Source: Alloalcanivorax xenomutans
GTDB taxonomy: Bacteria > Pseudomonadota > Gammaproteobacteria > Pseudomonadales > Alcanivoracaceae
Reading direction: 5' to 3'
NCBI RefSeq assembly: GCF_900217905.1
Contig: NZ_OBMO01000001.1
Location: 1 to 64,000 of the forward strand
DNA: 64,000 bases
Position 1 is the first letter of the stretch, and every line of letters begins with the position of its first letter. Both the position numbers and the translations under genes were made by a program. The notes under the pieces are model-generated. The model searched no databases, had not been told where the DNA came from, and worked only from the letters and a program-made list of their open reading frames with translations. Of the stretch, positions 16,037-54,297 are shown in pieces.

Positions 16037-17407
16037 CTACCGCAAAAGCACCACGTGTCCTTCCCGGGGCAGTCCGCCGTGATCGTTCAATGCACGGATC
16101 ACCGGCCCCGCCGCCTCGAACCCCCGATGCTCACACAAGCTCATCCAGCCCGATACCGGGTCACTGACCGCCTGCAGAAAACGCCGCTGCGCCGCGCCAA
16201 AGCGCTCGCTCAGCACCGCCGGGCCCCAGTCCTGATTGCGCTTGCGAATCTGCACCGGCGCGAAGAAAAAGCGGGGCTCCGGTGTCAGTGTGGCGTCGGC
16301 CTTGAGGAATTCCGTGTTGGTGGCGGAACCGGCGTAGCAGTCGTACACCAGGGCCGGACCGAAATGGTCGTGGACGGCGTGCCGCAACGCCTCATCGCCG
16401 GAGAAGTCCACGTACAGAGTCGGTTGCCCGGCATCCAGCGACGCCAGTTGATCGTAGTCCACCACCTGCTGGTAGAGTCCCAGGCCCTCGACGTAGTCCC
16501 GATTCGATGGCGACGTCAGCGCGATGCGTACCGGGTCGCCCATTTCCCGCAACGCGAAGGCGGCGCCATAAGCGGTCTTGCTCGAGGCGCTGGAGACCAC
16601 CAGCTGCCGCGCGCCGAAGAATTCATTGTCGGAGAGGAAGTCCGCCAGCATATAGGAAGTGAAGAACAGCGGCCGCAATAGCATTTGGTAATCTTCCAGT
16701 GCCTTCACATAGGCGCCGTCGGTGCTGCACCGGGTGTACTGGTTATAGGGCGAGGGCAATCCCTGGCGGTAGTCGGTGGCGTCATAGAAGCCGCGCTCAC
16801 TGATCCGCTCCGGCCGTACCTTCAGCGCCGTGGCGATGGGGAAGTAACCATAGAAACGCTCCCCGGGGTCCACGCCCGGCACCCGCGAGTCGGTCACGGT
16901 GGCGAATCCCCACACCGGCATGTGGCCCCACCCTTCCTGCCCGGTGGGGAAGAAGGACCAGTAGTTCATGGCGTCACCGAAGGCGGCGTAGGTAATGTTG
17001 TTGGTGGTCAGGGCGAACCGGTCCACGGTGAGGATCACCTCGCCGTCACCGGCTTCCGGCAGTGTCTGGCTGTTAGAGCCTGTTCATAGTCTTTACGCCG
17101 CCGCGTTGCTGCTGGAAAAGCCGCCAGAGGGCGTTGGGGACTGCAGGCTCTGGTGGTTCCAAAGTCAAAGGCCACAGCGTCCTCTGGCGGCTTTTCCAGC
17201 GCAACCCGAAGGGCCGGGCCCCTTTTTCCGTCAGGCCGCGATTACGCTTGTTTATGTAGAATGACTACACGGCACAATCGGAATCACAACCTGACGAAAA
17301 AATGAACTCCGGCGCGGCGGCGTAAAGACTATGAACAGGCTCTTATCCAGCCGGGTATGGCCCAGGTCGGTCTTGTCGGTCAGCAGTCGCAAATTCGGGG
17401 TGCGCAT
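16037..17407 (-). pseudogene. DUF2855 protein gene interrupted by a MITE
   Basis: Residues 1-21 (MRTPNLRLLTDKTDLGHTRLD) are encoded at 17407-17345 behind a GGAG Shine-Dalgarno; the rest resumes at 17072. Removing the element (17076-17342) and one TTA copy restores one frame through DNSQTLPEAGDGEV into the 333-codon remainder, an intact total of about 367 residues. The family is a quinone-oxidoreductase-like (MDR) group of unknown function. A GTG at 17038, originally an internal Val codon, could start a protein lacking the first 33 residues, but no Shine-Dalgarno was seen for it. TetR is divergent and may have regulated this gene. Confidence 0.88.
17076..17342. mobile_element. 267-bp MITE with 30-bp terminal inverted repeats
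   Basis: Perfect 30-bp terminal repeats (17076-17105 and 17313-17342, starting GAGCCTGTTCATAGTC) are flanked by a TTA duplication (17073-17075 and 17343-17345). Inside is a second inverted pair (CTGGAAAAGCCGCCAGAGG and its complement) and a third (TTTTTCCGTCAGG / CCTGACGAAAAA). No ORF of transposase size. The TNA-type duplication and GRGCCTG end point to mobilisation by an IS5-family transposase, which is inference. Confidence 0.93.
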
Positions 17408-17480
17408 GGTCGCTCCGTTGGTGATGATTAACGTGGCATCATGCTAACAATGCCCCTTCGCCAACGGGTTCGGATTCCCC

Positions 17481-18110
17481 ATGACCAGGAAAACACCATC
17501 GAAGCCCCTGCCCCAACCGCATAAGCGGCCCTCCCAGGCGCGCGCGGTGTTCACCGTGCAGGCCCTTTACGACGGCTTTGTTCGGATTTGGCGCCGCGAC
17601 GGACCGGCCGCCGCCACCACCCGCGCCATTGCCGAAGAGAGCGGCTACGCCGTGGGCACGCTGTACGACTATTTCCCCAACCGCACTGCGCTGTTATCCG
17701 GTTACGTGCGCCATTGCATGGATGTGCTTTGCCAGCGGCTGAGCGAGGAAGACACCGCAATGGACCGGCATTGCTGGGAGGAGCGTCTGCGGCGAGCGGT
17801 GTCACTGACGCTGGACGAGGACGGGCAAGCTCCCTACTTCGATCGGGAGATGTTGATGATGGAGGGGAAAATCGCCACCGCCGCCCACCACCAGCGTGCC
17901 TTCCGGCAGCTGGTGGACGCCTGGGGCGCGCTGGTGGCGGGCTGGCCGGACCGGCCCGGGCCAGCGGTGACCGCCGACACTCTGGAAACCCTGGTCCTGG
18001 CCCTTTGGGGGGCGCGGCGCTATACGCTGTTGCTGGACACCGACACGCCCCCGATCCCGCAACAGGTGGATCGGCTGGCCGTCATGGCCCGGGCTCTGCT
18101 GACCTCCTGA
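17481..18110 (+). CDS. TetR family transcriptional regulator
   Basis: 209 residues. The N-terminal HTH is clear (TTRAIAEESGYAVGTLYDYFPNRTALL); the C-terminal ligand domain is not assignable. It is divergent from the split DUF2855 gene (74 bp between starts), the usual geometry of a TetR regulator and its target, so it may now control a broken gene. An imperfect ATGAT...ATCAT dyad lies between them. Confidence 0.9.
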   Translation: MTRKTPSKPLPQPHKRPSQARAVFTVQALYDGFVRIWRRDGPAAATTRAIAEESGYAVGTLYDYFPNRTALLSGYVRHCMDVLCQRLSEEDTAMDRHCWEERLRRAVSLTLDEDGQAPYFDREMLMMEGKIATAAHHQRAFRQLVDAWGALVAGWPDRPGPAVTADTLETLVLALWGARRYTLLLDTDTPPIPQQVDRLAVMARALLTS

Positions 18111-23172: not shown

Positions 23173-23373
23173 GCAGGGAATAGTTAATAGTGAATAGTTA
23201 ACAGCGAAAAAAAGCACATTGCAGTACTGCAAAGGCTGTTTGCGTACCCGCAACTTCGGCTTATGTTAAAGGACAATCAGGCCCTGCCCAAGCGATGGCG
23301 CGGCCTCCTCGTTTCCCGATTCCCCGGCCTATTTCGCGCAACTGTTAACTATTCACTATTAACTATTCCCTGC
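23173..23373. repeat. Convergent-gene inverted repeat of 7-bp units, copy 3
   Basis: Arms 23173-23204 and 23342-23373 are 32-bp perfect reverse complements. The right arm reads TTAACTA, TTCACTA, TTAACTA, TTCCCTG. The left arm begins 3 bases after the cyclase stop and the right arm ends 3 bases before the HD-GYP stop. The spacer carries a perfect 14-bp palindrome, TTGCAGTACTGCAA (23219-23232). Confidence 0.9.
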
Positions 23374-24927: not shown

Positions 24928-25110
24928 GCCGTTTCCTCGTCGTTATGGGTCAAGCAAACCACGTCATAAGGCCGCTGTCATGGCTTGGCGCTTGAAGCCA
25001 CCGCGGCGATTGCCTACCATCCGTCGGTTCCGGGACGCAAACCCGTGCCCCCGCACCGGGCCTGCTTTCCACATCTGCCTGCTTCATTTGCTTTGGATTC
25101 CGTGTCACCC

Positions 25111-51587: not shown

Positions 51588-51771
51588 TAGTTAACCCCTT
51601 TCCCAGTGACGATTCCCAGTGACGATGACGGCACTGACAGCGAACCCTTTCCGCAATACACAGCCAAGCTTTCACCGGACAGGCACGAACGGTCCGCATC
51701 TAAGATGCCTAAACAAAGCCGAATGGCGCGACAGTATGACTTTAGTCGAAGGGCGGAGCCGGCGGCGCTAG

Positions 51772-51960
51772 GGCCTGTTCACCCTATTTCCACCGCGCCT
51801 GTTGCGGCTAAAACGTCACCAATCCAGGCACGAGGAGAGAAGTTTGGTCATTCCAAATGAACGACGAGTAACGCACAGTGGTGACGTTTTAGCCGCAACC
51901 CGAAGGGCTGGAGGCCAAAAGGGCATCCAGCAGGCGCGATGGAAATAGGGTGAACAGGCC
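51772..51960. mobile_element. 189-bp MITE at the end of the CHASE2 kinase gene
   Basis: Terminal repeats of about 30 bp with one mismatch (GGCCTGTTCACCCTATTTCC...) are flanked by CTAG on both sides (51768-51771, 51961-51964), a YTAR-type duplication as for IS5. Inside, GTTGCGGCTAAAACGTCACC and its complement form a second stem, and GCAACCCGAAGGGC is shared with the 17076 element. No ORF. Confidence 0.9.
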
Positions 51961-54297
51961 CTAGTCGCCGGCGTCCGCATAGGCGGGAAAGTTCAGGGTA
52001 AATGCGGAGCCCTGGCGCACCACGCTCCGGCACTGGATTTCGCCATTATGCTTGTCCATCACCGTTTTCACGAAGGCCAGCCCCAACCCCAGGCCGGTGG
52101 CCATGTTGTCGGCATCGAAGCGGCGATAGCTCTCAAACAGATAGGGAATATCATGGCTGGCAATGCCGACCCCCTGGTCGCTGACCTGGCAAATGACCCT
52201 GTCGCCGCTTTGCAGAACCGACAGTGTCACCACGCTTCGGGGCGGGCTGTACTTGATCGCGTTCTCAAGCAGGTTGAACACGGCCCGCACCAGAAAGCCC
52301 TGGTCGCCCCAAATAGGCCCGCCGTCATCGTCAAGGTTATCGCTTTCCAAGCGGATACCCTTGGCCTGAGCCAGAGGCCAGGCCCGGTCCAACGCATCCA
52401 TGGCGATATTGGCCAGCAACACCTCTCGAAAATCCAGTGCGCCAAACTCCACCTTGGCCAGCTGCATGAAGTCCTCGATCATATCCAGAGCGGATCGCAC
52501 CTGACGCTCCAGGCGCGCATGGAACTCCCGCGCCGGCAACGCCGCGGTACCGTTCTGCATATCGAGCAGGGCCAGCATACTGGCCTGCGGCGCCTTCATA
52601 TCGTGGGACAAAAACCGCAACATGTGCGCACGCTGTTCCGCCGCGCGCCGTTCACCGGTCATATCCACCAGACTGATCAGCCAGCCGGCATCCAGCGTAA
52701 TCGCCGTCCACAGTGGCGCCACTTCGATACGATAGTGATTTCCCCAACGGTCAAAAAACGCCTGACCATGCCAGTGACGCACATCGGCGAAACGCCCTCC
52801 CTCGGAGAGGAATACCGGCACGGCATCCGCCGGCACCACCGTCAGTAATGCATCCCGCAACTTCCAACTCTCCACCCCCGCGGGATTTCCCACCAGCCAG
52901 CGGGCTTTTCGATTGGCGGCCTTCACCTTGGCCTCGCCATCCACCAGAAACGTCACCACTGGCAGAGAGTCCAGCATGTCGGTGACGAACCGGCGGGAAG
53001 CACGCAGCTGTTGCACACCGGCTTCCAGGGCCATGACCCGGCGATGCAGCGTACTGCCCCAATGCATGCGGGAAGCACTGCCCGCCTCCGGCACCATGTT
53101 CGGCTCACTGCTCAGCGACTCGATCTCACTGCTGAACCAACGCAGGATCACACTCTGACTGCGCCATTGCCATAGCAGATAGAACAATACCAGTCCGGTT
53201 AAGGATGCCGCCGGAGGCCACCAGACTCCCAACCGCAAAGCCAGAGCACATGCCACCATGGTCAGTGTCGCCATCAACGCCATCAGGACGTGGACATAAC
53301 GCAAGCGCGACACCAGCAAGGCGATCATCAAGGCCAGCACCGGCACCATGGACAGCAATATCCTCGTGGCTTTATCCAGCTCGGTAATAACATAGCCATC
53401 CATCAGGCCATTGAGCAGATTAGCCTGGATCTCCACCCCTGCCATGGTGCCCATACGGCCCGATACCGGTACCGCATAGCGATCTCCCAGACCGGCGGCC
53501 GTGGCGCCAACCAGCACGACCCTGTCTTTAAGCAGCTCGTCCGGAACCTCGCCGAGCAACACACTGCTGTAGGACACTCGCGGGAACGCCCCGGGCGTCC
53601 CCCGAAACGGCACCCGGACCAGATGATCCCGATGCCAGGAAGGAGTGTTGTGTATCGACTGGGTTTCCTCGCCCGGCATCGCCATTCCCGTGGCCAACCC
53701 CTTGCTCGCCAGGGAATCGAACAGCGCCCAGGTAAGATGCGGTACCACCTGATCAATAACGCCCTCGCACAGATACAGGCGCCGCACCTTGCCATCCATA
53801 TCCGCTTCCACATTAATGTGTCCGATGCCGGCGGCATTGTCAGCGATGTCAGGCAAAGGCGGATAAACAACGGGGGGCGCCCCCGGCGTCGACATCGGAG
53901 CCCGCGCCAGGGGCACATAGACATTACCGGCACGGGCCATGGAGGCGCCCAGGCGCTGGTCCGCCTTGCCGTCACCTTCCGCTTCCAGAAAAAGGATATC
54001 CATCATCACGGCCTGGGCACCGGCTTCATGCAAGCGGTCCACCAACGCCGCGTGCACCAGCCGGCTCCAGGGCCAGCGCCCGATCTCACGAAGGCTACGG
54101 TCGTCCACGGCGACAATGAGAATGTCGTCGTTCACCGGCTGATCCGCCCAGGCAATCATACGGTCATAGACCGACGCATTGAGTTGTACGAAGTCACGGC
54201 TCGCCATCCAGCCGGTGGCGGCCAGAGCGATCAGTAACAGCACGCCCCACTGGAAAAACAGGCGGCGAAATAATGCTTCGCTGGTCAATATGGACAT
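51961..54297 (-). CDS. CHASE2-domain sensor histidine kinase
   Basis: 778 residues: N-terminal helix, CHASE2 sensor (about 35-310: ILIVAVDDRSLREIGRWPW), three membrane helices, a PAS, HisKA (RFLSHDMKAPQASML) and HATPase (NLLENAIKYSPP, GLGLGLAFVKTV). Downstream of the FecR/LysM gene with 42 bases between; may pair with the OmpR-type regulator at 61107. The stop codon lies in the MITE target CTAG. A TTG at 54333 is an alternative start. Confidence 0.9.
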   Translation of the reverse strand: MSILTSEALFRRLFFQWGVLLLIALAATGWMASRDFVQLNASVYDRMIAWADQPVNDDILIVAVDDRSLREIGRWPWSRLVHAALVDRLHEAGAQAVMMDILFLEAEGDGKADQRLGASMARAGNVYVPLARAPMSTPGAPPVVYPPLPDIADNAAGIGHINVEADMDGKVRRLYLCEGVIDQVVPHLTWALFDSLASKGLATGMAMPGEETQSIHNTPSWHRDHLVRVPFRGTPGAFPRVSYSSVLLGEVPDELLKDRVVLVGATAAGLGDRYAVPVSGRMGTMAGVEIQANLLNGLMDGYVITELDKATRILLSMVPVLALMIALLVSRLRYVHVLMALMATLTMVACALALRLGVWWPPAASLTGLVLFYLLWQWRSQSVILRWFSSEIESLSSEPNMVPEAGSASRMHWGSTLHRRVMALEAGVQQLRASRRFVTDMLDSLPVVTFLVDGEAKVKAANRKARWLVGNPAGVESWKLRDALLTVVPADAVPVFLSEGGRFADVRHWHGQAFFDRWGNHYRIEVAPLWTAITLDAGWLISLVDMTGERRAAEQRAHMLRFLSHDMKAPQASMLALLDMQNGTAALPAREFHARLERQVRSALDMIEDFMQLAKVEFGALDFREVLLANIAMDALDRAWPLAQAKGIRLESDNLDDDGGPIWGDQGFLVRAVFNLLENAIKYSPPRSVVTLSVLQSGDRVICQVSDQGVGIASHDIPYLFESYRRFDADNMATGLGLGLAFVKTVMDKHNGEIQCRSVVRQGSAFTLNFPAYADAGD

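Follow-up and report, generated by a model that had tools for sequence, protein, structure and literature searches.

The DUF2855 gene on the minus strand of the window, i.e. the whole stretch of 64,000 nt of Alloalcanivorax xenomutans DNA analysed here, is split after codon 21 by a MITE-like element, and Alloalcanivorax balearicus MACL04 has the same insertion at the same base. The explanation that we prefer, with slightly better than even confidence, joins three parts: an ancestral MITE insertion, a short DUF2855 form that has been kept under selection, and an element family that is maintained by its structure and has paired ends. The coordinates are collected in Table 1.

Table 1. Features of the split DUF2855 locus and a second related element (positions in the window)
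Feature	Position	Strand	Remark
MITE-like element	17076..17342	+	267 bp; orientation set by the CAACCCGAAGGGC core
Target duplication TTA, left copy	17073..17075	.	window letters
Target duplication TTA, right copy	17343..17345	.	window letters
Left terminal inverted repeat, 30 nt	17076..17105	+	inverted-repeat analysis
Right terminal inverted repeat, 30 nt	17313..17342	-	complements left repeat perfectly
Hairpin 1	17106..17205, limits approximate	+	arms 17111-17142 / 17169-17200, 88% complementary
Junction core CAACCCGAAGGGC, small CC-GAA-GG hairpin	17203..17215	+	common to distant relatives
Hairpin 2	17214..17316, limits approximate	+	fold
Cut-off N-terminal DUF2855 coding piece, codons 1-21	17346..17407	-	frame enters element, stop at 17252
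Remaining DUF2855 ORF, 333 aa from GTG	16037..17038	-	conserved between A. xenomutans and A. balearicus
Divergent TetR-type regulator gene	17481..18110	+	intact neighbour, served as comparison
Second related element	51771-51961		191 nt, GGGCCTGTTCA ends, CTAG both sides

The element and the interrupted gene

The original prediction of a MITE-like insertion with perfect 30-bp ends and an exact TTA target duplication was borne out: the complementary arms 17075-17105 and 17313-17343 are 31 nt long and 100% complementary, and 30 nt of these lie within the element. The ORFs touching the element are all short and run into the flanks or have at most 50 codons inside, so that it has no coding capacity of its own. 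Being short and non-coding, with terminal inverted repeats, a target duplication, dispersed copies and a relative in which the site is empty, it has the characteristics of a MITE. The foldback is nearly complete, i.e. the element is almost fully palindromic, and the whole folds into a three-way junction composed of a terminal stem, hairpin 1, the small CC-GAA-GG hairpin and hairpin 2. Its z value is -17.1 on the minus and -14.9 on the plus strand, and none of 200 shuffled sequences was equally stable.

The predicted splitting of a DUF2855 frame is supported by the match of the remaining ORF to PF11017 (E 3.4e-105; 353 bits vs a gathering score of 30.9; profile positions 1-329 of 335), which begins at residue 8 of the short form and covers nearly the whole Pfam domain. 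The parent frame that had been rebuilt from the window could be compared with an intact gene, because a related genome (G006) has the empty site; the gene there reads ...GHTRLDDSQTLPEAG..., which agrees with the prediction except that D replaces N at the junction. The GTG at 17038 corresponds to codon 34 of this intact gene, and a protein starting there would therefore lose 33 residues; the N-terminal stretch lost in the short form, of 27-40 residues, is present in all DUF2855 relatives with a readable upstream frame. A search for promoter-like sites in 17000-17500 found none. Another DUF2855 gene of the genome (L079, C31:11584-12498) has 43% identity to the split one.

The locus in relatives and the age of the insertion

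The ORF was searched in 38 genomes including the own one (G000), and close DUF2855 orthologs were found in G006 (98% identity), A. balearicus (G007; 97%) and G001 (73%). G006, which provides the empty site to be looked for in related strains, has an uninterrupted frame and TCA where the carriers have TTA. A. balearicus has TTA on both sides of the insertion and matching flanks, and because of this shared insertion the event is not recent at the strain level, contrary to what had been proposed. The picture set against the original prediction, in which all relatives carry the element with a gene starting downstream, holds for A. balearicus with its conserved ORF, but not for G006 and, as far as read, G001.

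In A. balearicus, contigs C66 and C41 both break within the element, leaving 49 and 45 element letters visible, and all 94 are identical to those of the window vs a divergence of about 4-5% in the flanks; judged from these letters, this hints at a younger insertion. A long tract of identity around the insertion is absent between these two genomes: in the first 100 bp on either side they differ at 1 and 3 positions, and G000 differs from G006 at 1 and 2. In a 12-kb segment nearby, pieces of G007 are 94-97% and pieces of G006 93-95% identical to G000, and the TetR neighbour of G000 is also closer to G007 than to G006. The 62-nt cut-off piece differs at 1 position in both G000-G007 and G000-G006 and at 2 in G007-G006. 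The three lineages are nearly equidistant.

Probable selection on the shortened gene

The open frame downstream of the element has 348 codons in both G000 and G007. Between the two ORFs, 35.5 changes are synonymous and 11.5 non-synonymous, giving a dN/dS of 0.096; under neutrality of all 47 changes so few non-synonymous ones have P = 9e-13. The corresponding ratios are 0.064 for G000-G006 and 0.105 for G007-G006, and 0.193 for the TetR neighbour between G000 and G007. The value of 0.096 supports continued use of the downstream ORF, provided that the insertion predates the G000-G007 split. The dS of the ORF is lowest for G007-G006 (0.110), followed by G000-G007 (0.155) and the third pair (0.210), and therefore G000 and G007 are not necessarily sisters in this ORF. 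Later transfer of the inserted allele, or its loss in G006, would make the conservation partly older than the insertion.

According to the explanation we prefer, the MITE would have inserted at TTA within codon 22 of the DUF2855 gene in a common ancestor of A. xenomutans and A. balearicus, so that the insertion in the two species would have a single origin. It would have severed the first 21 codons, and the downstream ORF would have been kept under selection, probably giving a short protein from the internal GTG with the Pfam domain retained; this predicted short form would be expressed and active. The DUF2855 gene may thus have been shortened rather than killed. A plain pseudogene, weakened as an explanation by the low dN/dS, is a possible though less probable outcome: the insertion would have inactivated the gene, and the low ratio would mostly reflect the time before insertion, the shared site being due to late interspecies recombination or to independent hits. 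The identity of all visible element letters although the flanks differ fits such a history, as does the closeness of the A. balearicus ORF to that of G006 rather than G000, and the second DUF2855 gene on contig C31 could compensate for the loss. The missing identity tract, and first-100-bp differences much like those to the empty-site genome, speak against late recombination, and independent hits would demand the same base, orientation and end variant. Far less probable, to a degree that we would be surprised to see it confirmed, is that production of the full-length protein continues, the folded insert being bypassed in translation or removed from the message. Pairing in the terminal stem would place the two halves of the gene side by side, insert and duplication together amount to 270 nt, and the N-terminal piece has a single difference between the carriers; this conservation, however, says little about bypass because the empty-site G006 is equally close, and copies of the element vary in length from 265 to 315 nt. 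We know of no bypass signal for such elements.

The element family in the genus

Thirteen full-length copies, including that of the window, are present in the A. xenomutans genome, the other 12 having 77-95% identity and E values of 1e-72 or better; with this number the element is not a chance structure. Shorter copies occur too, e.g. a 56-bp element on contig C44 that has little beyond the two ends. Some match to the element was found in 14 of the 38 relatives, in several of them a distant match to the interior only. With at most 2 mismatches, the end pattern of the element is present in at least 15 of 46 genomes and at least 2 of 8 genera of the family.

We compiled 43 copies of 265-315 nt (13 from G000, 4 from G006, 7 from G007 and 19 from Alcanivorax sp. 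24, G008; L157, without ends, was dropped). Their inverted ends are complementary at a mean of 28.4 of 30 positions. An exact 3-bp duplication flanks 19 copies and is always TNA (TAA 12, TTA 6, TCA 1); it is absent in the other 24, perhaps lost in some of them through rearrangement between copies. Lone ends of 17-34 nt, located mostly after TNA or NTA, are also found: 6 of 35 exact matches in G000 and 8 of 10 in G006 have no partner, and several are orthologous between species (among L064-L069, L093-L100, L103 and L105-L112). These lone ends could be remnants or one-ended products, or the sites could have a different role. Interior lengths differ between orthologous copies (283/266, 267/300, 267/298 and 282/297), suggesting that interior pieces have been exchanged or lost.

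Several other loci were noted. A site at about 24946-24955 is empty in the window and in G006 and occupied in G007 (267 nt) and G008 (300 nt), where the two elements (L062, L163) share a private end variant and differ in the length of the interior. Immediately ahead of a small ORF there is a 73-nt stretch (L015, G000 C22:157114-157186) that has 84% identity to hairpin 2 and no element ends, and this arrangement has counterparts in G006 and G007. At 23173-23373 the window contains a different inverted-repeat element, with perfect 32-nt ends of another sequence, and stretches similar to it are numerous in G007 and G008.

Related elements beyond the genus

A 17-letter core was found in 8 of 369 genomes of the class, including the own one. 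On inspection, the matches in G175 and G199 proved to be something else; GGGCCTGTTAACACTA ends bound the elements of G387 and G168, and 181 such ends are present in G387; in G249 and G216 an interior of this kind is enclosed by different ends; and in G390 the interior was seen and the ends were not. The same junction core occurs in elements of other gammaproteobacterial families. Relatives of the GGGCC-end type are often found with CTA on one side and TAG on the other, which fits a 2-bp duplication of TA. The second related element of the window shares the junction core, and its hairpin 2 is shortened.

Search for a transposase and a vehicle

The IS5-family transposase with matching ends that the original prediction suggested was not found: profiles PF01609 and PF13586 had no match in G000, and none of 10 PF01609 loci in G006, G007, G008 and G019 is surrounded by a matching end pair. 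An IS5 driver is a putative link, and such a transposase may occur in a genome outside the sample. Among the matches listed for G000, G006 and the 46 genomes of the family, no end pairs at IS spacing enclose a transposase. The 2.55-kb stretch from the C14 element to the lone end L212 has desaturase-like and AraC-like ORFs, as read from their translations, and no transposase; in the G387 stretches between ends no transposase was recognised, with a GGDEF-like ORF in L227, the one stretch read whole, and other ORFs elsewhere. The likeliest reading is that the element is non-autonomous and would be moved in trans by a transposase with a TNA target preference.

A phage or plasmid vehicle was considered and rejected, the window element having no match in plasmids. 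For the relative L037, three plasmid records cover 52%, 19% and 19% of the query, and there was no match in phages. The end pattern had no match in viral_contigs; the core pattern was found in 11 viral contigs, in 10 of which scanning found no outer inverted repeat, the remaining one having a weak fold only.

Covariation and paired ends

Ends and core together were used to collect 34 elements. In their minimum-energy folds the small junction hairpin is formed exactly as described in 24, and the junction has a different fold in 7; in the remaining 3 the core string is not exact. For covariation, we aligned 24 copies of 264-268 nt, taken from 54 copies, 19 from this genus and 5 from another. Two-sided changes were found at 32 of 105 pairs vs 18.4 in shuffles, with none of 500 shuffles as high, and in 142 cells vs 45.0; slid structures have no more than 5 pairs and 17 cells. 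The reference structure, being that of the window's own copy, is somewhat favoured on the cells paired.

The two ends of a copy change in step. Over the 43 copies, the left and right ends of the same copy have a mean of 1.6 mismatches in 30, and those of different copies 4.4; when ends were re-paired, the observed total of 69 stood against a shuffle mean of 186, and none of 5000 shuffles was as low. At positions 10-20 of the ends, left and right are in the same state in 33 copies, which represent 15 different states. A weaker result is that the own right end is at least as close as any other copy's in 24 of the 43 copies only. In 8 comparisons of orthologous copies at 6 sites, one two-sided and 5 distinct one-sided end changes were found, which points to matching set mostly before or at insertion; conversion of the ends after insertion, as the sole cause, is disfavoured by the same counts.

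We read these elements as a structure-maintained MITE superfamily. The family would be maintained as the three-way junction of a terminal stem, two hairpins and the conserved CC-GAA-GG core, and new copies would have matched ends because a pair of complementary ends is required, or produced, by the agent that moves the element. The matching could be due to selection for the paired structure, to correction in a hairpin that precedes transposition, or to copying in which one end is the template for the other. A more specific version, which we regard as speculative and rather improbable, is that each transposition of this widespread gammaproteobacterial superfamily of three-way-junction palindromes passes through a folded intermediate, either single-stranded or a hairpin, with one end as template for the other; perfectly matched ends would be renewed every time, and the many solo ends would arise as by-products. 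It is still less probable that the element is an RNA device, such as a structured 5' leader or a regulatory RNA, with selection acting on pairing in the RNA transcribed from one strand. The very strong folding, found on both strands, and the covariation would be expected of such a device, and in folds that forbid G-U pairs the single mismatches of the hairpins are uneven (69 G-T vs 111 A-C). In the terminal stem, however, G-T and A-C mismatches are equal in number (30 and 32 of 1290 pairs; 23 and 24 of 884 in the other set), which points to DNA rather than one RNA strand, since selection on the RNA of one strand should favour G-U on that strand; this disfavours a function in RNA only, though the hairpins are uneven. 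Copies are furthermore not tied to any single gene context, and six element loci had no Rfam match at the gathering score, 11 weak matches in another search being all below it.

Comparison with known systems

A licence-limited literature search found no description of the element family, which is no proof of its being unpublished. A MITE within a gene is ordinary. End pairs that change in step, and a stem architecture that is kept while stem sequences change, are a natural record of element copying, because ends recognised singly by a transposase need not match at neutral positions; folded intermediates in MITE transposition thus become testable. The shared and conserved DUF2855 ORF is a case on which the idea of MITE insertions shortening genes, rather than destroying them, can be tested.

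MITEs derived from the IS5 family have a 3-bp TNA duplication, and the ends of the window element resemble, as we take it, GAGCCTGTT-type IS5-family ends. The TNA duplication is shared by the window family (19/43 copies). The differences are that G000 has neither a PF01609 nor a PF13586 transposase, that no autonomous element with these ends was found among the places listed, and that, for relatives of the window element with GGGCCTGTT ends, the flanks are mostly CTA and TAG.

REP/BIME sequences have a GTAG/CGTC tag, and their single unit is a hairpin. A single end of the window element, in contrast, is not itself a hairpin and has no such tag, and the units of the family are about 265-315 nt long with target duplications. 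Both are intergenic palindromic repeats that occur as single and paired units, the REP/BIME palindromes being associated with RAYT transposases, according to the excerpt available (PMC3733652).

Bacterial MITEs include NEMIS/Correia, ERIC, RUP, Nezha and QMITE2 of Coxiella, and in the excerpts available of the two sources (PMC10969869, PMC3733652) they are, like the window element, short and non-coding, with terminal inverted repeats, a target duplication, many copies and a strong hairpin fold, and can interrupt genes. Going beyond what those excerpts mention, the window family has ends that covary within a copy, and its three-way junction with the CC-GAA-GG core extends across gammaproteobacterial families.
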